Virus record (IMG/VR): IMGVR_UViG_3300042731_007477
Span: 1-25,032 of that record
DNA from: a virus
DNA length: 25,032 nucleotides
Direction: 5' to 3' (one strand)
The notes beneath the pieces are model-generated. The model was given only the letters and a program-made list of their open reading frames with translations, was not told the origin of the DNA and did not search any database. Both the position numbers and the translations under genes were made by a program. Shown here piece after piece: positions 1,762-25,032 of the stretch. Positions within the stretch are counted from its first letter, which is position 1. Every line of letters starts with the position of its first letter.

Positions 1762-3036
1762 ATGATAGCTCGATATGCTTGTCCCCAGATTGAAAGTATC
1801 TTCAGCCCGATCCATCGTTTGAGGATCTTTGTCGAAATCGAGAGACTTTTTTGTTCGAGTCAAGGATGTCCAGATTCAATCCTTGAGGATTTCTCGAAGG
1901 TAGACCTTGAACTGCTCCTTAAAGATTTAGCAGTCAAAGAGAAAGAAACCCGACATGAGACGGTCGCTTTCATACAGGCTCTAGGGCTTCAGATGAGTAA
2001 GGAGTCTTTGCCTTATCTTCATAAGGGGGCAACTTCGTCTGACATCCTTGACACTTGTCTTGCAAAGCAGATGATGAACGCTTCTGATGTTGTCATTCAA
2101 AAGATTGAGTATCTTCTTGAAACGCTCAAGAAGAAGGCGATTGAACATAAAGACACTCCCATCTTAGGACGCTCTCATGGGATGTCGGGTGAGATCACGA
2201 GCTTTGGGGTTATCTTGCTTGGGTTTTATTCAGAGTGGACACGCAACTTAGAACGCATGAAGAGAGCACAAGAAGAAATCTCTGTCGGGAAAGTATCTGG
2301 TGCTATGGGGAACTATGTTCATATAGACCCTCAAATCGAGAAAACAATATGCAAGGCTCTAGGGCTTGATTTTGAGCCTGTTTCGACTCAAGTAGTACCA
2401 AGAGATAGACACGCATACTTTATGAGCGTATTGGGCATTTTAGGGGCTTCTATGGAAAGGTTAGCCATAGAGGTGAGGAACTTATCTCAATCTCTCATAC
2501 AAGAAGTGGCAGAAGGGTTCGGTAAAGATCAAACAGGATCATCAGCTATGCCCCATAAGAGAAATCCAATCTTGTCGGAGAACCTAACTGGACTATCTCG
2601 CATGATCCGATCTTATGTTCAGCCTAGCCTTGAGAATGTATCTCTTTGGTATGAACGAGATATGAGTCATTCATCTGTAGAGCGTATCGCCATCGAGGAC
2701 TCCCTACATCTCGTTTGCTTTGGTCTAAGCAGGCTTAACGGAGTGATTAAGAACCTCTATGTAGATGCAGACAGGATGGCTCATAACATAGACCAAGTTA
2801 AAGGGTCTTATTTGAGTCAGACTTGTCTGCTGTTCCTTATGGACAAAGGGTACGCTAGAGATGATGCGTACAAGGTAGTCCAAGAGATGACCTTGTACGG
2901 ACAGAAAGACCTTCTTGATGTTTTACAAGGGATCAAAGAGGCAGGTCATTTGACTCAAGAGGAGTTGGATCAAATCACTTCGAGAGATCGCTTTTTAGCT
3001 CGGACGAGCTTGATCTTCTCTAGGTTTGGTTTCTGA
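1762..3036 (+). CDS. purB: Adenylosuccinate lyase (PurB), phage-encoded
   Basis: 424 residues, the usual full length. The enzyme splits fumarate from adenylosuccinate (giving AMP) and from SAICAR in purine synthesis. The fumarase/aspartase superfamily signature is intact: SSAMPHKRNP at 260-269 holds the catalytic serine on its flexible loop. Other conserved blocks are HKGATSSD at 87-94, GRSHG at 136-140 with the expected histidine, and ERDMSHSSVER at 298-308. The usual second histidine of the THGxHAEP block is absent (SHGMSGE here). The start fits the family N-terminus (bacterial PurB begins MIxRY). No frameshift is seen. Such a gene is rare in phages. It could boost ATP supply or act on a modified-purine intermediate (see findings). 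Confidence 0.95.
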   Translation: MIARYACPQIESIFSPIHRLRIFVEIERLFCSSQGCPDSILEDFSKVDLELLLKDLAVKEKETRHETVAFIQALGLQMSKESLPYLHKGATSSDILDTCLAKQMMNASDVVIQKIEYLLETLKKKAIEHKDTPILGRSHGMSGEITSFGVILLGFYSEWTRNLERMKRAQEEISVGKVSGAMGNYVHIDPQIEKTICKALGLDFEPVSTQVVPRDRHAYFMSVLGILGASMERLAIEVRNLSQSLIQEVAEGFGKDQTGSSAMPHKRNPILSENLTGLSRMIRSYVQPSLENVSLWYERDMSHSSVERIAIEDSLHLVCFGLSRLNGVIKNLYVDADRMAHNIDQVKGSYLSQTCLLFLMDKGYARDDAYKVVQEMTLYGQKDLLDVLQGIKEAGHLTQEELDQITSRDRFLARTSLIFSRFGF

Positions 3037-8878: not shown

Positions 8879-10222
8879 TCACCCGACAAGAAAACTCACC
8901 ACTCGCTCAATCACTGAACCCTCGTCTGAACGAATGTCTCCCTCCCAAATTACAAGGCAATCAAGACCTACCTCTGCATAAGCCTCTATCGTATTACGCT
9001 CATGCTCCTCTTTACTCATTCCCGTCTTAGACTCACCATGCCAGTAATCACCGAAACACTCTACTACCTTTGTAGCACCCCTATAAGGATGTTCGGGATC
9101 ATCACTCACACAAACTACAAAGTCTGGGTTCTTATAGCCACCAATCGAACCGTCAAAGTTCTTCTTGCTTGGAAGAAATCTCCAATATGCCCCATTACCT
9201 GTAAAAGTGAGCTTGTCGCTATATGAGGCAACCCTTGACTCAAATCCGTTCATGTCATTCGCAACTAAGCCAAGGAAAGGTGTACCGTACCTTTCCATGT
9301 TGGTTGCGTACTGTTTCTCCCTAAACTCTTGGAGTTGTAGTGGATGCTCGACACCATAACGCTTTAGGTTGGTTTTCTTGACCTTATCCCAATGACCATC
9401 AATAGCACCAGGGAAATCAACACCATATCTGTCCATCATCGTATCCCTAATCTCCCTCTTGCCTTGCTCGGACGCAAAGTAGTGGCTTCCATAGTTCTCG
9501 ATCATCGTTTTGAGTTGCTTCTCCCTAAACTCCTCCACAGCACTAGTGTAAGGCACACCGTATCGCTCCATATTAGTCGCTACAACCTTCTCCATGACTT
9601 CTTCACTCATGCTAGGGATTGGCACTCCATAACGCTCTATATTCGTTGCCTCAATCTTAGCCCTAAGCTCCGGTGATCCCAATAGCGTTCCACCATACCT
9701 CTCAAGATTAGTAGCCTCTGTCTTAGCCTTGACCTCATCATTCTGTTGAGGGTTGACTACACCATATCTCTCAAGGTTCGTCTGCTTAATCTTATCTTGT
9801 ACGCTCTCCCAAGCAAAAGGGTTATCCTTACCCTTTAAGACAGGACGCTTACCATCAAGGGCATCTTGTACCTTTTCAAAGACACTACTCTCTTTTGAGA
9901 AAGGATTCTCTGCACCATAACGCTTGATGTTAGTCTGTTTACGCTTCTCCACAGACTCTTTGTTGTGAGCTGGGTTCTCAACCCCATAACGCTTGAGGTA
10001 AGTATTCTTCCTCCTCGCATTAGCAATGGCTTTCTTATCCCGACCTTGCCATACCTCACACCCACTCTTATGTCTTTTCATCTGTGTGTTTGATGTAGCT
10101 TGATGTCCACAGATACATGGTGTGATTGGTTCGGGTTTCCAATCTGTCCAACAAACCTTGCGATGCCGACCACTAATTGTTGCTGTTTTGAACACTCTTT
10201 TACAATGGGGGCAAGTAGCCAT
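8879..10222 (-). CDS. Vsr-like homing endonuclease with zinc fingers and tandem YG repeats
   Basis: 447 residues. Two short Cys/His zinc-finger-like units open the protein (C4-C7-H20-C24 and C36-C38-H51-C55). Residues about 76-315 hold about 11 repeats of 22-23 residues with the pattern K-x-x-T-N-x-E-R-Y-G-V-x-x-P. The C-terminal 110 residues look like the Vsr/EDxHD nuclease fold: NPDFVV (365-370), VVECFGDYWHG (386-396), then the helix ERNTIEAYAEVGLDCLVIWEGDI. Zinc finger, repeat array and nuclease are a known layout for phage homing endonucleases, with the repeats as likely DNA readers. Its RBS and start codon lie in a perfect 11-bp inverted repeat, suggesting translational control. It lies downstream of the split-intein unit. 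Confidence 0.85.
   Translation of the reverse strand: MATCPHCKRVFKTATISGRHRKVCWTDWKPEPITPCICGHQATSNTQMKRHKSGCEVWQGRDKKAIANARRKNTYLKRYGVENPAHNKESVEKRKQTNIKRYGAENPFSKESSVFEKVQDALDGKRPVLKGKDNPFAWESVQDKIKQTNLERYGVVNPQQNDEVKAKTEATNLERYGGTLLGSPELRAKIEATNIERYGVPIPSMSEEVMEKVVATNMERYGVPYTSAVEEFREKQLKTMIENYGSHYFASEQGKREIRDTMMDRYGVDFPGAIDGHWDKVKKTNLKRYGVEHPLQLQEFREKQYATNMERYGTPFLGLVANDMNGFESRVASYSDKLTFTGNGAYWRFLPSKKNFDGSIGGYKNPDFVVCVSDDPEHPYRGATKVVECFGDYWHGESKTGMSKEEHERNTIEAYAEVGLDCLVIWEGDIRSDEGSVIERVVSFLVG
9275..9997 (-). repeat. Array of about 11 YG repeats (22-23 codons each) inside the endonuclease gene
   Basis: Tyr-Gly pairs fall at residues 79, 102, 153, 176, 198, 221, 244, 266, 289 and 312, with one degenerate unit (KGKDNP) near 131. 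Spacing is 22-23 residues throughout apart from the degenerate unit. Each unit reads roughly as a helix (EKxxxTNxERYG) plus a variable loop (VxxPxxxxE). DNA identity between units is partial, so the array is old or diversified rather than recently expanded. Confidence 0.85.
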
Positions 10223-10258: not shown

Positions 10259-10351
10259 CACCACAGCCTACATTAAGTCCAAATGTTTTTTTAGGGCTTT
10301 ACTAACACCAACCCCATACTTTCGCTGTTTGAGGGTGGTCTTTGAGGGTTC

Positions 10352-11050
10352 TCAGATGACCCCTTGAGCTACACTCAAAAAGCCCGAAAGCATCTCGTAG
10401 CTACCTATAAATAAAGGCAAAACCAGGAAGTTTCTAGGTGCTAAAACACCCCTTCCCACATGAGGTCCGAAGGCCGAGCGGATACCCACACCGTACTTGG
10501 GTTGCTTCAACCCACGCATATATTTTGTGGTTCTTGCTTTTGCTTCAACGGACATCGACCACATTTGCTCGGCAGATGATTTGAGTCCTTCATACTTTGA
10601 GCTACGCTCTACATCTAAGGAAATCCCACCTATTGAATACGAGTTGTGGGCTAGTATTCCGTTAGCAAGCACAAAGTTTTCGTTCATAGGCACACAGAGG
10701 TCATAAGTGTGTTCGCAGTCATCCTCTTGAGAGATGTTAGTGATAAGACACCCTTTGACTTGACCATCTTCAACGATAGCGAGAGTATCTCCAACAGAAA
10801 ACTGATCTGTTTCAATGGCTTTGATTTTACCCTCTTCGATAGTGAATAGGGAGTGGTCTTGGGTAGCGATAACGAACTGTCCGTTATCCAGTTCTACTTT
10901 AAGTATCTTTTTATGTGGGGTGTGATGCCTCATCACATCCGAGATAACTTGGTAGTCTACTTGGCTGGTTTCATTGTCAACAGAGAGAACTTTAAGTTCC
11001 CCTTGTAAGAAAGCCTGCTTGATTGCTTGTTTGGTCGAGTTGTCCATCAT
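10352..11050 (-). CDS. Split intein C-part (IntC) joined to C-extein of a virion-like protein
   Basis: 232 residues. Residues 1-136 are a HINT/intein C-part. Block B is present (ATQDHSLF at 62-69, T-x-x-H), as is the block F/G end (TYDLCVPMNENFVLANGILAHN at 115-136, broken here as TYDLCVPM / NENFVLANG / ILAHN) with His135-Asn136 next to Ser137. Block A is missing and lies in the gene at 11994-12776. Residues 137-232 are the C-extein (SYSIGGISLDVERSSKYEG onward), which resembles the C-terminal half of a phage structural protein. Splicing would join it to the 225-residue N-extein to give about 321 residues. The start overlaps the endonuclease stop as ATGA (11047-11050) after AAAGGAG, so the three genes are coupled. 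Confidence 0.85.
   Translation of the reverse strand: MMDNSTKQAIKQAFLQGELKVLSVDNETSQVDYQVISDVMRHHTPHKKILKVELDNGQFVIATQDHSLFTIEEGKIKAIETDQFSVGDTLAIVEDGQVKGCLITNISQEDDCEHTYDLCVPMNENFVLANGILAHNSYSIGGISLDVERSSKYEGLKSSAEQMWSMSVEAKARTTKYMRGLKQPKYGVGIRSAFGPHVGRGVLAPRNFLVLPLFIGSYEMLSGFLSVAQGVI
10402..10417 (-). promoter_or_regulatory. Possible promoter motif inside the C-extein 3' end
   Basis: On the minus strand it reads CCTTTATTTATAGGTA, matching the copy at 1-16 in 13 of 16 bases. It lies in coding sequence about 180 bp upstream of the YG-repeat endonuclease, so it could start a separate transcript for that gene. The distance is longer than for the other copies, so confidence is low. Confidence 0.3.
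10643..11050 (-). other. IntC: C-terminal part of natural split intein (136 residues)
   Basis: It begins at the initiator Met and ends at Asn136. The order is a short charged lead, a HINT beta core (KVLSVDNETSQVDY), block B with the conserved His of TQDH, a linker, then the block F/G end with HN before Ser. The large IntC with a very small IntN matches the split position known for AceL-TerL type inteins, rather than the more common late split that leaves about 35-residue C-parts. Confidence 0.85.
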
Positions 11051-11994
11051 ACGCTCCTTTGCTGGACTAGGGTTTTTATTCTTTCAAGACAAGAATTTGG
11101 GGAATCATATATTTCGTGTTCTTTTAACCTAAGCACAGCCCACCCTAGCTTAGATAGGTTTGTGTTTTTGGCTTTATCATTCCCTGCGATTCTTTTTGTG
11201 GGGGTAAACCCACAGGCATCGCACCCATGCCAATAACATCCGTCAACCTCTATAGCGATTTTGAGAGAAGGTATGGCTTCATCTATATGGTAGTAAGAAA
11301 CGCTATGTTCAGTCAAAGTCTCGATACCCTCTGAAACAAGCATCTGTTTCAAAGTCTGATGCGGTTTTGTGTAAGTGTGGGAGATGTGTTCCCTTGCGTA
11401 CTTACAGCTTTCAAGGACTTGATCTCGGTTATCCTTGTGCCAATTTTTTATCTTTTCTTGATGGGACTTGGTAGCCCACATCGCTTTAGACTTTTTGCTC
11501 TTTTTAGCGAGAGTGATAGGGTTTTTGTTATTTTCTCTAAGAGCATCTTTGATGCGATCTCCCACCTCACTCTGTTGCATCTTTATGCTTGCTTGGCTAA
11601 TCTGCTTCCTTGTGATCTCGCCTTGTGGTGTTTTAAATCGAGCCTTGAGTGTTTCTGATTGCCTGGCTTTTTGCTCCTCTGATTTCTTTTTGTTCTCCTT
11701 TGTGAAGGTACACATAACAGGAGCATCCGTGTGCTTCTTAAAGTAAGAGTCTACGGTTAATCCAGAGCAAGATTTTAAATGCATTGTAGTCACTTGAGCG
11801 AGCCTCGCCCCACATTCCTTACATGGAATGTAGTGATCCCCCTCTAAGAGACTGTCAAAAGAGTTGGGGTCTATAAGTGGCACTTTACGCTTACCCTCTG
11901 TGGGTAAGGTTTTAAGGATACCTTCCTCAATCAAACTCTTTAGGTGTCTTTGGTTAAAACCGTATTTCATTATGAGGTGTCTTTGCTTCAACAT
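11047..11994 (-). CDS. Vsr-like (EDxHD) homing endonuclease between split-intein halves
   Basis: 315 residues. A helical N-terminus (about 10-50, helix-turn-helix-like) precedes a zinc finger (C58-C61-H72-C76). A long basic helical region (about 100-200) with NUMOD-like S-E-x-x-K/A-R repeats probably contacts DNA. The C-terminal 95 residues carry the Vsr-type nuclease core: YYHIDEAIPSLKIAIEV (234-250), DGCYWHGC (251-258), and a KNTNLSKLGWAVLRLKEHEI helix-strand end. It starts by TAATG overlap with the N-extein gene and ends by ATGA overlap with the IntC gene. This matches the 'fractured gene' layout described from marine metagenomes, in which a Vsr-like endonuclease sits between split-intein halves and spreads them by homing. 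Confidence 0.9.
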   Translation of the reverse strand: MLKQRHLIMKYGFNQRHLKSLIEEGILKTLPTEGKRKVPLIDPNSFDSLLEGDHYIPCKECGARLAQVTTMHLKSCSGLTVDSYFKKHTDAPVMCTFTKENKKKSEEQKARQSETLKARFKTPQGEITRKQISQASIKMQQSEVGDRIKDALRENNKNPITLAKKSKKSKAMWATKSHQEKIKNWHKDNRDQVLESCKYAREHISHTYTKPHQTLKQMLVSEGIETLTEHSVSYYHIDEAIPSLKIAIEVDGCYWHGCDACGFTPTKRIAGNDKAKNTNLSKLGWAVLRLKEHEIYDSPNSCLERIKTLVQQRSV

Positions 11995-12776
11995 TACTCC
12001 TCACCCTCCTCTTTTATAATCTCATGTAGCTCCTCAATAGTGAGTTTGACTTTTTCCCCGCTGGGGAGCAATACCTCTAAGTCGGTATCCCCCCTAACCG
12101 AGAATTCGTCCACGATCCAGTTTGCTTGTAGAGCCATAGCCGCGAACTGTATAGCACCTTGAAGGATAGGGGTTCTCCAAGCAGGTTTTTGGGATACGAG
12201 AGCGTCTAGGTTTTGTAGCTCTTCAGTTTCGGGTGGTTGCATATTCCACCAATCTAAAGCTCGCTCTAGGTACTCAAGCATCTCCTCATCTTCCCACACT
12301 TGACCAAAGACTTGATTGTAAGCTCCGATGTTAGCTTCGTGCTCTGGTGGTCTGAACTTATAATACTTGTCTGGATTCTGGTCTCGGACCAGCATCCTAA
12401 GTTTCCATACCATAGCTCTTTGGGCTTCGGTGAGCTGTAATCCAAGCACAGCGTTCTCAGCGACTACCCCGAACTCTTGGACAACAGTTTGGGGTTGGCT
12501 ATTGACCAACTCTTTGAGCGTCCATCTGATCCGATAGCGACCATAGGTAGCTGTGGTGGGTATGCGTACAGAGGCATAGTATTCACCAACCGATGGGTTT
12601 TCTGGTATGCGAGCAGGATCACCGATGAGTACATCAGTTTCGGGTGGACCAGGATCAACATAATATAGTGCGTAAGTGATCTCGGCGGCGTTTGCGACAT
12701 TCCCACTTGAGTTTGTGAGGAAGATGTCGAGATCGCCACGAGAGAGGATTTGATTTCTTTTAAATGCTACAGCCAT
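11994..12776 (-). CDS. N-extein of a virion-like protein fused to split intein N-part (IntN)
   Basis: 260 residues. Residues 1-105 look like an immunoglobulin-like beta domain (VGEYYASVRIPTTATYGRYR, IRWTLKE, VVQEFGVV) of a type seen in structural proteins of large phages. Residues 106-225 are a helical region (VWKLRMLVRDQNPDKYYKF, ALDWWNMQPPE). Residues 226-260 are intein block A: SVRGDTDLEVLLPSG then EKVKLTIEELHEII, closely like CVxGDT-type intein starts, with Ser in place of Cys at position 1. The frame stops 35 residues into the intein and overlaps the endonuclease start as TAATG. An AAAGGAGG ribosome binding site and a promoter-motif copy lie upstream. The virion assignment is by resemblance only. 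Confidence 0.85.
   Translation of the reverse strand: MAVAFKRNQILSRGDLDIFLTNSSGNVANAAEITYALYYVDPGPPETDVLIGDPARIPENPSVGEYYASVRIPTTATYGRYRIRWTLKELVNSQPQTVVQEFGVVAENAVLGLQLTEAQRAMVWKLRMLVRDQNPDKYYKFRPPEHEANIGAYNQVFGQVWEDEEMLEYLERALDWWNMQPPETEELQNLDALVSQKPAWRTPILQGAIQFAAMALQANWIVDEFSVRGDTDLEVLLPSGEKVKLTIEELHEIIKEEGEE
11997..12101 (-). other. IntN: 35-residue N-terminal part of natural split intein
   Basis: It starts at Ser226 of the host frame (codon TCG at 12101-12099), directly after NWIVDEF of the extein. The pattern S-V-x-G-D-T, a short hairpin, then KLTIEELHEI corresponds to intein block A and the following strand-helix. A 35-residue IntN is near the shortest known for natural split inteins. 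Confidence 0.85.
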
Positions 12777-13483: not shown

Positions 13484-14869
13484 ATGAAAATACTTGTAGG
13501 TGGAGATGTCAGCTTTGGCAGAATCTATGAAGGTCAGAGGATTTCTTATTCAGCACCTTTGTGTTTAGCTTCCATAGGCGAACTAGAGAGAGATTATTGT
13601 ATCTTTAACCTTGAGAGCCTTTTCTGCGATGACTGGAAAGCAAATAAAAGAGATGTAGATGAGAAGTGGGGTACGAGCTACACTCATGCTAATCCAGAAG
13701 ATGTGAAGCATCTCATTGAGTGTGGTGTAGATCATGTTTCTCTAGCTAACAACCATACACTTGATTGGGGTGAGGTAGGGGTAGAACAGACCTGTAAAGT
13801 CCTCAACAAGTTTGGCATCTCACATTCGGGGTGTGGTTCTAATGATAGAACGCACATAGATAAAGAGAAGAAAATAATAGTATTCTCGATAGATACGGTT
13901 GAGTGTCATTACAAAAAAGAAGATCCTTTAAACTGCAAAGAGGACATCAAAGACTTCTTTAAAGAGGTTAAAGAGCTTAGAGCAAAGCACGAGGATTACC
14001 TTCTGATTTGTTGTGTTCATTGGGGTCGGTTTAGGGTGAGTCCGAACAAGGGTCAGAAATCTATGGGTCGGAAGCTCATCGACTGTGGCATTGATGTTGT
14101 TTTAGGTAATCATTCACATAAGGTTCAATACTTCGAGATGTATAAGGGTAAGCCTCTGTTTTACTCTTTAGGGAACTTGTACTTCACTCATAGAAATCCA
14201 GAATACAATAAGCCACCAAATGTTCATTACGCTTACCTTTCAACTCTTAACTTTGAAGGTCGAGACTTTAAAGGTGTAGACCACCATCAAACTTGGTGTG
14301 ACGATAAGAAGGTGGTTCTTAAAGAGGAGAAGCCCTCTAATCTTGGCTTAGAGGCGTTGAGGTTTGCTCGGAGCTATATTGGCTTTGGGGAGTCAGAGCA
14401 TACGACTAATGTTGGTTGGTTTATGAAGCATATAGACGCACCGAATAAAGAGACAGCGGCGTGGTGTGCGAGGTTCATATTTTACTGTATTAAGAAAGCC
14501 TGTGAAGAGAATGGTATTGATCCTGTCTTAGAGAAGAATGACAAGACTGGATATGCTAAAGAGCTTTACAAGCAGATTGCAGAGATCGGGTATGTCTCAT
14601 TAAATCCGATGCCTGGAGACATCATTGTTTGGGATAGAAAAGAGGAGGGGAACAAGAACGGACACATTGGGATTATAGAGTATGTAGAGGGAGATAAGAT
14701 CACAGCGATTGAAGGAAACAGAGCACCAAATCCTGGTTCAAAGGTTGATCGTTTTACTTACTCTTTGAACGAGCTTTTAAACTACAAAGAATGGGACGAT
14801 GAAGATAAGCATTTCCATCTTTTTGAAGGGTTTGCTCGCTTACCTCACCTTAAAAAGTTGGACGAGTAA
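13484..14869 (+). CDS. CapA-like metallophosphoesterase fused to CHAP amidase/peptidase domain
   Basis: 461 residues. Residues 1-275 are a CapA (poly-gamma-glutamate synthesis protein) type calcineurin-fold domain: GGDVSFGR (6-13), FNLE (41-44), SLANNHTLDWG (86-96), CVHWG (177-181), LGNHSHKVQ (207-215), FYSLGN (226-231). These give the Asp/Asn/His metal ligands. Residues about 287-461 form a CHAP (NlpC/P60-like) hydrolase with catalytic Cys328 (AAWCARF) and His394 (NGHIGII), followed by Glu410/Asn412 (AIEGN). CHAP domains cut peptidoglycan peptide or amide bonds and occur in phage lysins. No signal peptide is seen. Fusion with CapA is unusual and suggests an enzyme acting on a capsule or wall gamma-glutamyl polymer. 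The ribosome binding site is AAGGAGA. Confidence 0.88.
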   Translation: MKILVGGDVSFGRIYEGQRISYSAPLCLASIGELERDYCIFNLESLFCDDWKANKRDVDEKWGTSYTHANPEDVKHLIECGVDHVSLANNHTLDWGEVGVEQTCKVLNKFGISHSGCGSNDRTHIDKEKKIIVFSIDTVECHYKKEDPLNCKEDIKDFFKEVKELRAKHEDYLLICCVHWGRFRVSPNKGQKSMGRKLIDCGIDVVLGNHSHKVQYFEMYKGKPLFYSLGNLYFTHRNPEYNKPPNVHYAYLSTLNFEGRDFKGVDHHQTWCDDKKVVLKEEKPSNLGLEALRFARSYIGFGESEHTTNVGWFMKHIDAPNKETAAWCARFIFYCIKKACEENGIDPVLEKNDKTGYAKELYKQIAEIGYVSLNPMPGDIIVWDRKEEGNKNGHIGIIEYVEGDKITAIEGNRAPNPGSKVDRFTYSLNELLNYKEWDDEDKHFHLFEGFARLPHLKKLDE

Positions 14870-15708
14870 TGAAGATACTAGTTGGAGGAGACATATCCTT
14901 TGGTCGTATTTACAAAGGAAAAGAAATCCATTATGGCACTGATGGGTGTCTAACAGAGCTTGCATTGATCCCTAGAGACTACTCTATTTTCAATCTTGAA
15001 AGCCCTCTTACAAGGAAGCCAAGAGTGAAGCTCCCTAAGCCTCACGCTGGTGTTTATTTATATGGTGAGATCAGTGATGTGGTGCATCTTTTAGACTCGG
15101 ATGTGGACTATCTATCTCTAGCTAATAATCATGCTATGGACTTTGCTTCTAGTGTCGAAGATACAATCTCAACTCTTGATAAGGTTGGCATCTCACATTC
15201 GGGTACAGGTACAGACTATTTGAAGCCTCATATCGACCATGATCTTGGGTTAGCGATTTTCTCAGCCGACTTAATCGGTAAGTATGGGTATGAAGATCCT
15301 GTTTGCTGTGGCCCTTATTTTCTTGACTTGTTAGTGAAAAAAGTCGTCCCTCATTATCGAAAGCTACTTCCCGATTATGCGTTCCTATGTTGTGTACATT
15401 GGGGAGCTGAATATGAGATGCCTACAGAGGAGCAAAAGAGGGTCGGTAAAAGGCTCATTGATTGTGGTGTGGATATGGTTATCGGTCATCACCCTCATGT
15501 GATACAGCCTATGGAAGTCTATAAAGGTAAGCCTATTTTTTATTCGTTAGGCAACTTGTACTTTACTCATCACAGGAAAGACCTAGAGGCGAGGGAAGAT
15601 ACACATCTTGGTTGCTTATCTTTAGTTGAAATGGATGGTAGAGAGTATGTAGGGCATACCGACTACCATACATGGACGATAAGTGGAGAGAGAGTGATTT
15701 TGTTATGA
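14869..15708 (+). CDS. CapA-like metallophosphoesterase (second copy, no CHAP domain)
   Basis: 279 residues covering only the CapA phosphoesterase fold, clearly paralogous to the first 275 residues of the preceding gene: GGDISFGR, FNLESPL, SLANNHAMD, CVHWG, IGHHPHVIQ, FYSLGNLYFTH. This copy has the canonical HHPH metal-ligand motif (207-210) where the neighbour has NHSH. It is therefore probably the more typical enzyme. It starts by TAATG overlap with the CapA-CHAP stop. Tandem duplication followed by gain or loss of the CHAP domain explains the pair. The substrate is unknown. Confidence 0.88.
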   Translation: MKILVGGDISFGRIYKGKEIHYGTDGCLTELALIPRDYSIFNLESPLTRKPRVKLPKPHAGVYLYGEISDVVHLLDSDVDYLSLANNHAMDFASSVEDTISTLDKVGISHSGTGTDYLKPHIDHDLGLAIFSADLIGKYGYEDPVCCGPYFLDLLVKKVVPHYRKLLPDYAFLCCVHWGAEYEMPTEEQKRVGKRLIDCGVDMVIGHHPHVIQPMEVYKGKPIFYSLGNLYFTHHRKDLEAREDTHLGCLSLVEMDGREYVGHTDYHTWTISGERVILL

Positions 15709-17445: not shown

Positions 17446-18189
17446 TTAGTCTAAGGGAGGGATCTTCCCATGCTTGACGAAGTTAGCGTGGGCGAGAGGC
17501 CATAGCTTTTGGATTTGCCGAGAAATCTCACGAGCGAGGAGCTTGATCTCCCATTGAGCGTCTGCGTGATCTCGTTTAGCAATAAAGCTATTGACCCAGT
17601 TGTGGAGAGAACCTGTCGCCCAATAAGTGGTGTATAGGTTCTGTGGGAGGATCATACGAGCTTGATCTCTTGCCACACCCTTTTCTACTAACTGATTGTA
17701 GAGTCGGATAGAGTCAGTCGCATGGCTCTTGATAGCAGAGACAGCATCGAGCTTGAGGAACTTAGGGAAGTCATTTGGGTCGAACTCAACGACAGGATTG
17801 AAGGTTTCGTCAAGGCTTGCTTGCCTGTTCTTAGTGTCTTGCTTACGCATCTCGCTTGGGAAGTAAAACTCGATGTCCGAGCTTGTGTATCGCCTAGAAA
17901 TCTCGTTGTAAGAGAATGTCCTGTGTCTCATCTGTTGTCGGGCAACGAACAGAGGTGCTTTGATCCAAAACGATACGACATTATGTTCTGTGGTAGAGGT
18001 GTGTCCTTCTTTGATGAGGAAGTTGCAGAGTCGTTCCTCACGCTCACCCATCTCTGTGCTGACTTGCCCTAGACTTGCCCTAGCACTGTTGACGATTGTG
18101 AGGTCATCGCCCATAGCTTGAATGAGGGCTACCCCTCCGATACCGTCATCATAAATACTGACCATCTCAGATCTAAAGTCATTCGTCAT
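17446..18189 (-). CDS. thyX: Flavin-dependent thymidylate synthase (ThyX)
   Basis: 247 residues, usual length. It converts dUMP to dTMP using methylene-tetrahydrofolate, NADPH and FAD. The ThyX signature RHRxxSxNExSxRY is intact at 88-101 (RHRTFSYNEISRRY). EGHTSTTEH (61-69), ending in the FAD-site histidine, also fits. The C-terminal DHADAQWEIKLLAREI region matches the family's dUMP-binding helix. Phages often carry thyX to raise dTTP for replication. It is monocistronic on the minus strand, divergent from a small zinc-ribbon gene at 18261. Together with pyrD and pyrF-pyrE it covers much of pyrimidine supply. Confidence 0.97.
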   Translation of the reverse strand: MTNDFRSEMVSIYDDGIGGVALIQAMGDDLTIVNSARASLGQVSTEMGEREERLCNFLIKEGHTSTTEHNVVSFWIKAPLFVARQQMRHRTFSYNEISRRYTSSDIEFYFPSEMRKQDTKNRQASLDETFNPVVEFDPNDFPKFLKLDAVSAIKSHATDSIRLYNQLVEKGVARDQARMILPQNLYTTYWATGSLHNWVNSFIAKRDHADAQWEIKLLAREISRQIQKLWPLAHANFVKHGKIPPLD

Positions 18190-19414: not shown

Positions 19415-20296
19415 ATGCTCCATCTCTTAGACCCCTTTACAGCTCATAAAATAGCTATTTCTTTACTAAAAAGATCTTTTCCGTATCCGAAAATCTTTGA
19501 CCCACATAATGTCTTTGGGTTAGATTTCCCTAATCGGTTAGGTCTTAGTGCTGGCTTCGATAAAGACGCGGTTGCTTTGAGGGGCTTAAAGTCTTTCGGC
19601 TTCGGTCATGTAGAGGTAGGTACAGTCACTCTTGCTATGCAGAGAGGGCACACGCCTCAGTATATAGAGAGGCAACCGAACGCACTTATCAATAAGCTCG
19701 GACTCCCTAATGTCGGGGTGAACCAGATGGTTCGGAACATCAAAAGATGCCGACCTAAAGGATTAGTTCTTGGAGGATCAATCGCTTATGGCGATATGGG
19801 AAATCCTGGATATTGTCTCACCGAGATTTATGAGACATTCTCCCGACTGCGTAAGAGTGTAGATTACATCGTTCTAAATGGGTCTTGTCCGAATGTGGAG
19901 ACACCAGAGAACATATATAAATGTTTAAACCTCATAGATCATACCGATACACCAGTTCTTGTTAAGCTCCACATCATGGAGGACAAGATGAAGCTGATCC
20001 ATACTTTAAGTGTTCTCAAGGAGAGTGGGGTTAAGGGAGTGATCTGTAGCAATACGCTCCCCACAGTAAAAGGGGGGTTGTCGGGCAAGCCTCTTACACA
20101 TATAGGGCATCAGCAGTTAGAATGGGTGAAAGAGAATAGCGACTACCCTGTGATTTCTAGTGGAGGTGTGATGACTCCTCAAGATGCTGTTGATCGTATT
20201 CGACTTGGGGCTGATCTCGTACAGGTATATACAGGCTTCGTTTACGGTGGGATAACCTTCCCTTATCGAGTGGCTAAGGCGATGAAGGGTTTGTAG
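19415..20296 (+). CDS. pyrD: Dihydroorotate dehydrogenase (PyrD), phage-encoded
   Basis: 293 residues. It oxidises dihydroorotate to orotate with FMN. The overall sequence is class 2 (quinone-linked) like: FGLDFPNRLGLSAGFDKD (34-51), VEVGTVT (66-72), ALINKLGLPN (90-99), GGLSGKPL (220-227), SSGGV (248-252), and VQVYTGF (269-275). The catalytic position in NGSCPN (155-160) is Cys158, as in class 1 enzymes, where class 2 has Ser (N-x-S-S-P-N). The long membrane-binding N-terminal helix pair of class 2 is short or absent. The start agrees with the family (LDPxTAH), though the ribosome binding site is poor. It is a real outlier for a phage gene. Confidence 0.95.
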   Translation: MLHLLDPFTAHKIAISLLKRSFPYPKIFDPHNVFGLDFPNRLGLSAGFDKDAVALRGLKSFGFGHVEVGTVTLAMQRGHTPQYIERQPNALINKLGLPNVGVNQMVRNIKRCRPKGLVLGGSIAYGDMGNPGYCLTEIYETFSRLRKSVDYIVLNGSCPNVETPENIYKCLNLIDHTDTPVLVKLHIMEDKMKLIHTLSVLKESGVKGVICSNTLPTVKGGLSGKPLTHIGHQQLEWVKENSDYPVISSGGVMTPQDAVDRIRLGADLVQVYTGFVYGGITFPYRVAKAMKGL

Positions 20297-24236: not shown

Positions 24237-25032
24237 ATGTTTTTTAAAAATTTGAAGTCATTAGCTAGGTCAAAGAAATCTAGCCTCTGTGTTGGTCTTG
24301 ATGACCCGAATGAAAGTCAAAGGGTAGAGCGAGTTTGCTCGATCATAGATCAGACTGAATCCTATGTGGTCTGCTACAAGTTAAATCCAGCTTTCTATCA
24401 TGGTAATGCAGAGCATATAAAAGCTATTACAGATTACATGAATGAGAGAGGTCTACTCTGGATATATGATGGCAAGCTCGGAGATGTGCCACACACCAAT
24501 GTAGAGTATGCCAAGTATGTCTATGATGTCTTAGGTGCGAGTGCCATGACAGCCCACCCTTATTGTGGCTATGACTCCCTCACTCACCTCATGCGTAAAG
24601 ATAAAGGTCTTTTCGTATTGGCTCGGACAACAAACCCCTATGCGTATAAGATACAGTCCCAAGTCCAAGACCACCTTTATGAGTGGTGTAATCGCTCTAA
24701 AGAGATGGGTCTTGTTGTAGCTGGTAATAAAGAGGCGTTCTTACATGATATGAGGAAGAACCTTCCGAACACTTGGTTTTTATCACCAGGTATTGGGGCA
24801 CAAGGTGGGGGGATTAGATATGCTGTTCCAAACACTCTGTACTCAATGAGTCGGACAATCCTAAACGCATCAGATCCAGCCGAAGTAGCGAAGGAATATG
24901 GTAGACAGTCTTACTTTGATTTAGAGATTGAGCTTGAACACCATGAACTTATCAAGAGGGGCGAGTTCACATTAGCGAGTGGTCAGAAATCTAACCTCTA
25001 CATTGACCTCAAGGGAGTGAGTGGAATACCCG
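24237..25032 (+). CDS. pyrF/pyrE: PyrF-PyrE fusion (OMP decarboxylase / orotate phosphoribosyltransferase), 3' truncated by window
   Basis: 265 codons are visible and the frame is open at the window end. Residues about 10-230 are OMP decarboxylase: LCVGLDDP (17-24), the catalytic DGKLGD (78-83, D-x-K-x-x-D), AHPYCGYDS (106-114), LARTTNP (128-134) and SPGIGAQGG (183-191). From about 232 a PyrE N-terminus follows: ELIKRGEFTLASGQKS then NLYIDLKGV, the start of orotate phosphoribosyltransferase. One chain would turn orotate into UMP via OMP. The order PyrF-PyrE is opposite to animal UMP synthase. The start ATG 24237 has AGGG before it. With pyrD it gives the last three steps of UMP synthesis. Confidence 0.93.
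   Translation, partial: MFFKNLKSLARSKKSSLCVGLDDPNESQRVERVCSIIDQTESYVVCYKLNPAFYHGNAEHIKAITDYMNERGLLWIYDGKLGDVPHTNVEYAKYVYDVLGASAMTAHPYCGYDSLTHLMRKDKGLFVLARTTNPYAYKIQSQVQDHLYEWCNRSKEMGLVVAGNKEAFLHDMRKNLPNTWFLSPGIGAQGGGIRYAVPNTLYSMSRTILNASDPAEVAKEYGRQSYFDLEIELEHHELIKRGEFTLASGQKSNLYIDLKGVSGIP

Follow-up and report, generated by a model that had tools for sequence, protein, structure and literature searches.

A probable head-tail connector gene divided by a predicted Ser-only split intein and a Vsr-like endonuclease gene in a large phage

Introduction

In the fractured genes that Dassa et al. reportedly described in 2009, a split intein breaks a gene and a free-standing Vsr-like endonuclease accompanies it; the hosts are said to be enzymes of DNA synthesis and repair. 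Here we describe a gene of this type in IMG/VR virus record IMGVR_UViG_3300042731_007477, the whole of which (25,032 bases, hereafter the window) was analyzed, and in which a probable head-tail connector gene is separated into an N-half gene and a C-half gene by a predicted split intein. The locus resembles the 2009 examples in the split intein that breaks the gene, the Vsr-like endonuclease gene in the gap, and the phage setting. Unlike those examples, it has a probable virion connector as host, two split sites, and three-piece and re-fused members.

Other described systems share part of this arrangement. The AceL TerL and GOS TerL inteins likewise combine a short intein-N with a large intein-C in a phage packaging or assembly gene, but AceL TerL depends on Cys, and GOS TerL, a Ser1/Cys+1 intein, has no motif NX (PMC13014065, PMC10189870), whereas the window intein lies in another gene and has Ser1 and Ser+1 with a motif NX histidine. 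The PolB16 OarG intein (PMC10189870) agrees with the window intein in its Ser1/Ser+1 nucleophiles, motif NX histidine and atypical early split; it differs in its intein-N, which has 15 residues compared with 35 here, and in its host, a DNA polymerase, and only the present family includes several carriers with an endonuclease as well as split and continuous forms. In jumbo phage MIJ3 an intein likewise splits a PolB gene, and an endonuclease gene separates the two parts, although there the host is a DNA polymerase and the endonuclease is of the HNH type (PMC6892783). Class 3 inteins, to which we return below, are described in PMC7891396. Fractured genes with split inteins are thus a known kind, from which the present case departs in its host gene, in a predicted Ser-only intein with an early split, in a member split at two sites and in a member whose halves have fused again.

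Results

The N-half gene, the endonuclease gene and the C-half gene follow one another in that order on the minus strand of the window (12776-10352). The N-half gene (12776-11994) encodes 260 residues, of which the first 225 (N-extein, 12102..12776) correspond to residues 1-225 of the probable connector and are colinear with intact homologues, and the last 35 (SVRGDT...EGEE, 11997..12101) precede a stop codon at 11994-11996. The homing endonuclease (HEN) gene (11994-11047, 315 residues) overlaps both halves and lies exactly between them. The C-half gene (11050-10352, 232 residues) encodes 136 residues ending in LAHN (intein-C, 10643..11050) and a 96-residue C-extein that begins SYSIGG (10355..10642; stop codon 10352-10354) and is colinear with residues 226-321 of the intact homologues L006 and L005. 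Because each stop codon overlaps the next start (TAATG; GTATGATGG) and a good purine-rich Shine-Dalgarno sequence stands ahead of each gene, the three look like one coupled operon. The same arrangement, identical, was found in a 15.2-kb contig (L003) that is possibly from the same phage. The original prediction, made from the letters of the window, had the three reading frames, the block B TQDH and HN|S end of the C-half, the position of the endonuclease gene and the joined length of exactly 225 + 96 = 321 residues in place; its reading of the window as a fractured gene is supported by our sequence comparisons and was right in substance. The comparisons extend it to a second site, a three-piece gene, dead or deleted endonucleases, a re-fused intein and Ser1/Ser+1 chemistry.

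That prediction had named an intact homologue running across the junction as the decisive finding. A wider homologue scan gave 79 loci, and 45 distinct uninterrupted genes of related phages, all continuous across the junction, were placed in an extein tree. One of them (L006) encodes the complete 321-residue protein as a single open reading frame (ORF), and in the intact 321-residue homologues L006, L005 and L022 the junction has no gap; in L005 to L011 the match to the C-extein restarts exactly one codon past the end of the match to the N-extein, which is 93-94% identical between the window and L005-L007. The continuity expected of the spliced product (F|SYSIGG) was thus found, but the expected residue was not that of the intact homologues, which read F|D|YSIGG, so that Ser replaces Asp. 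The junction residue is Asp in 44/44 scored intact alleles, and the +1 residue is Ser or Thr in the seven carriers with a known C-extein (Thr in L046). This insertion point, designated site b, falls within the most conserved stretch of the gene (DEF|DYSIGG), just ahead of the otherwise invariant Asp (D226), and the intein thereby swaps the Asp for its own nucleophile. At L092:6034-6528, Ser rather than Asp occupies the +1 position though site b holds no intein, a possible scar of precise intein loss.

The C-half matched Pfam Intein_splicing (PF14890) at 57.6 bits (cut-off 35.8). The Pfam scan gave no intein match for the N-half, since 35 residues are too short, and of the intein profile search proposed for both halves only the C-half part came out positive. 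The missing piece was recognized in L086/L087 (contigs of 312 kb and 50 kb, identical over the gene and in agreement across 2,810 bases), in which a single uninterrupted ORF encodes this intein (...DEF|SVRGDTDLEV...EELHEIIKEERMMDNLTKQ...LANGILAHN|SYSIGG). The in-frame fusion of an identical intein-N to the intein-C there proves that the 35-residue tail is the missing intein-N; it is also identical to the intein-N of L004. An AlphaFold model of the 169-residue L086 intein (predicted local distance difference test [pLDDT] 94.3, predicted template modeling score [pTM] 0.86) shows a confident Hint fold with intein-N as its first strands, and the best PDB matches of this model in Foldseek were inteins, among them the cysteine-less split intein Aes123 PolB1 (9HTH, 2e-10). 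The contiguous natural copy, the model and these matches bear out the assignment of both halves to an intein.

The window intein has Ser1, Ser+1, motif NX (R41-H42), block B (T63QDH66), block F and the C-terminal His-Asn pair (H135-N136). Ser1 is present in every site-b carrier, and the nucleophiles and His-Asn that mark a split intein are found on separate ORFs. Every b-intein aligned, that is, the window and six other Ser1 intein-C regions, has Arg or Lys followed by His at motif NX, whereas the Cys1 inteins of the same alignment, which occupy another site (site a, below), have a different residue in the histidine column. A class 3 intein was ruled out, position 1 being Ser and the block F Cys (YDLC) lying off the position that Cys takes in class 3. 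In Ser1/Ser+1 inteins Arg or Lys stands before a motif NX histidine (PMC10189870), and the term cysteine-less denotes Ser or Thr at positions 1 and +1, with non-catalytic Cys allowed (PMC12707363), of which the window intein-C contains three; by both usages the b-intein is predicted to be a Ser1/Ser+1, or cysteine-less, intein. Natural atypically split inteins have an intein-N of 15-37 residues (PMC13014065), a range that includes the 35 residues in the window; site-b relatives have 33-43. PolB16 was called in 2026 the only natural atypically early-split Ser1/Ser+1 motif NX intein known (PMC13014065), and the predicted b-intein adds another, with a 35-residue intein-N.

The endonuclease matched Pfam DUF559 above the cut-off (28.7 bits; cut-off 20.6) and MTES_1575 (34.2; 38.2) and Vsr (24.8; 27) just under theirs. 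Its homologues in L004, L046, L090 and L095 keep the EVDGCYWHGC catalytic block and the E, D, H and D columns, features that mark it as a predicted Vsr-like (EDxHD / PD-(D/E)XK) homing endonuclease and agree with the earlier naming of the gene. A tblastn search with the intein and the endonuclease gave no match in 50,697 records of isolated phages.

A different, Cys1 intein splits the same gene at site a (RDQ|N134), which in the window (Q133|N134, 12375..12380, minus strand) is empty. Site a is split in L012/L013 (375 kb), L086/L087, L004, L019 (LR745208, 485 kb), L092 and L114 (C-half seen), and L077 has a continuous intein there. The slot holds a TnsA-like endonuclease, or an HNH one in L092. 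Like D226, N134 is otherwise invariant and is replaced by the intein's own nucleophile. Both inteins are present in L004 (296 kb), where the gene lies in three pieces, an arrangement supported by one contig: the first consists of extein and the intein-N of site a; the second of the intein-C of site a, 92 middle extein residues and the intein-N of site b; and, after the endonuclease gene, the third of the intein-C of site b and extein. With both inteins in one gene, two orthogonal trans-splicing reactions would be needed to rebuild the protein. We consider it likely that the L004 phage naturally makes a virion protein from three separately translated polypeptides by means of two orthogonal split inteins, Cys-dependent at site a and Ser-only at site b, and that the two sites between them represent all stages of a split-intein cycle, with the return from a split to a continuous form among them. 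The contigs of L004, L086, L013, L046, L095, L091, L077 and L090 come from intein-rich genomes: intein domains are matched 2 to 8 times per contig, in several cases within ORFs of 800-1850 residues.

The stages were as follows. Forty-five genes are empty. Split genes with an intact endonuclease were seen at site b in the window, L046, L090/L091, L095 and L043 (to the end of its contig), and at site a in L012 and L019. In L018 the gene is split and the endonuclease dead: a TGA stop codon interrupts its reading frame, and in the EVDGCYWH catalytic block an Asp has become His. At site a of L004 the endonuclease is deleted, leaving a 33-residue ORF from both ends of the TnsA-like gene. Site b of L086/L087 has no endonuclease, and ATTATAAAAGAGGAG is joined to CGTATGATGGATAAT; the window counterparts of the fusion point are AAAGAGGAGGGTGAGGAGTAA at the end of intein-N and CAAAGGAGCGTATGATGGAC ahead of intein-C. 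The fused copy still contains the ribosome-binding site and the start codons from which intein-C was once translated, a structure that a deletion between AGGAG repeats could have left. L086 is surrounded by split copies in the intein tree (support with the window, 87/88). These comparisons indicate that in L086/L087 the endonuclease gene was lost and the two halves became a single reading frame again, with the old translation start signals left behind as a scar.

We compared the parts of the window locus with those of L004. The two share 96% of intein-C residues and 100% of intein-N residues, but 84-85% of extein residues, and nucleotide identity falls at the intein ends from 96-99% to 67-77%. 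Synonymous divergence (dS) was 0.21 for intein-C and 0.40 for HEN, but 1.35 for the N-extein and saturated for the C-extein. The flanking gene has thus diverged between phages far more than the intein and endonuclease have, which shows that the cassette moves. In the extein tree at least eight changes are required for the b carriers and six for the a carriers, and the closest relative of most carriers is an intact gene. Transfer of the cassette between diverged phages is the pattern predicted by homing, for which an established model exists (PMC3229294), and is consistent with the endonuclease cleaving the intein-free allele.

Moderate evidence points to a head-tail connector as the probable host protein. 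PHROG 17327 (head-tail connector) matched 11/43 homologues weakly (best E 1e-4), over residues about 150-271 and so across site b, and the Tunturi_5 homologue is annotated as a head-tail connector and lies beside tail terminator and sheath genes. Two points weigh against this assignment: it rests on these weak profile matches and one annotation; and the extein model, an N-terminal beta-sandwich with helices, is of modest confidence (pLDDT 72.8), and nothing in the PDB matches it convincingly. The window itself is a 25-kb contig, with the host and the remaining genome outside its view. A PDB profile search with the extein alignment gave no match, and phage G gp165 is a structural neighbor of the model. 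Some other virion or baseplate-type structural protein would leave the intein reading unaffected, and here the beta-sandwich matches BppU-like and baseplate domains and the neighbors of the gene in the window are metabolic genes; given the PHROG matches across site b and the setting of the Tunturi_5 gene, we regard this as the less probable identity, though a serious one. The virion-like host of the original prediction is therefore probable, but the matches fall short of demonstration. Mycobacteriophage inteins have been described in terminase and non-structural genes (PMC3706429), and we found no report of a connector as intein host in the literature searched, which left most subscription papers aside. 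The source is a large tailed phage, probably a jumbo phage. L114 falls in a Verrucomicrobiota metagenome-assembled genome bin, a link too weak to name a host.

Endonuclease insertions are able to kill genes, and the nonsense codon of L018 and the deletion in L004 are evidence of endonuclease decay in relatives, so the window could in principle hold a decaying connector gene, with halves that have lost the ability to splice. This is very improbable, because dN/dS is below 0.13 in all intein and extein parts wherever computable (window compared with L004), which argues for purifying selection, the catalytic residues of the intein are intact in every carrier, several independent site-b carriers share the layout, and the product would be required for virion assembly. 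Even less credible is assembly of the halves as separate subunits without splicing, as in a genes-in-pieces ribonucleotide reductase of another phage, split by a homing endonuclease (cited in PMC10448857), because complete intein-N and intein-C with all nucleophiles are conserved, the contiguous intein of L086/L087 must splice in cis or leave a 169-residue insert, and the junction lies within the most conserved segment.

Three other candidates were rejected. The window has no Rfam match, which speaks against a group I intron or any other kind of RNA element in the gap. Readthrough would have to cross a whole endonuclease gene in the window and five stop codons between the site-a halves of L004. 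Assembly artefact is countered by the identical L003 (which may be the same phage), by the agreement of L086 with L087 and by independent diverged carriers.

Discussion

The anatomy of the locus, the junction homology, the Hint fold, the catalytic motifs, the transfer of the cassette, the decay of endonucleases and the re-fusion are all observed in these genomes. We put at roughly 93% the probability that a mobile split intein, together with its endonuclease, divides the probable connector gene and that the product is trans-spliced to 321 residues. Splicing itself, DNA cleavage and connector function we infer, and the following course may be envisaged. A mobile split intein, with its halves flanking a Vsr-like endonuclease gene, would invade the connector gene at DEF|DYSIGG, and the three genes would be translated as an overlapping operon. 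The 35-residue intein-N on the first half would bind the 136-residue intein-C on the second; Ser1 would attack the F225 carbonyl, the ester would pass to Ser+1, and Asn136 would cyclize, releasing the 321-residue protein and the excised intein. During co-infection the endonuclease would cut intein-free alleles, and repair would carry all of the cassette, with its +1 Ser codon, over to the new phage. Once the endonuclease had decayed, the intein would remain split or re-fuse by deletion.

If this is true, protein splicing would stand on the path to the assembled virion, and L004 would be a natural counterpart of the tandem trans-splicing that synthetic biologists have designed. The two sites of the gene occur in empty, split with endonuclease, split with dead endonuclease, split without endonuclease and continuous states, a range that makes the split-intein homing cycle directly testable, together with the assumption that splitting runs only from continuous to split. 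Replacement of the otherwise invariant N134 and D226 by an intein nucleophile is a measurable cost to the host protein. A natural Ser-only early-split lineage is wanted as a source of thiol-free protein ligation tools, and an intein-N of 35 residues is near the reach of peptide synthesis.

Neighboring genes in the window

A DUF7487-type free-standing homing endonuclease gene (8879..10222, minus strand; PF24308, 153.6 bits; PHROG 3339, homing endonuclease) lies directly downstream of the C-half gene. The interval between the two contains, at 10280-10333, a short sequence (KQ.KYGVG) that partially repeats the coding region of the C-extein, perhaps a scar of the insertion of this endonuclease. 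A DUF7487 endonuclease also lies directly 3' of the connector gene in L006, L007, L012, L019, L064 and L092, which suggests that the 3' end of the gene is a third endonuclease target. The C-terminal extension of the window protein (LVLPLFIGSYEML..., 10355-10423) is found in L005-L011, L022 and L023, with a variant in L046; most relatives end at RNFL and lack it. On the other side of the locus are tandem PGA_cap (CapA-like) genes (13484-14869 and 14869-15708), the first fused to a CHAP domain. Genes of nucleotide synthesis in the window encode adenylosuccinate lyase (purB, 1762-3036), ThyX (17446-18189), dihydroorotate dehydrogenase (pyrD, 19415-20296) and orotidine decarboxylase (pyrF, 24237-25031), the last of which runs off the end of the window and is perhaps fused to pyrE.
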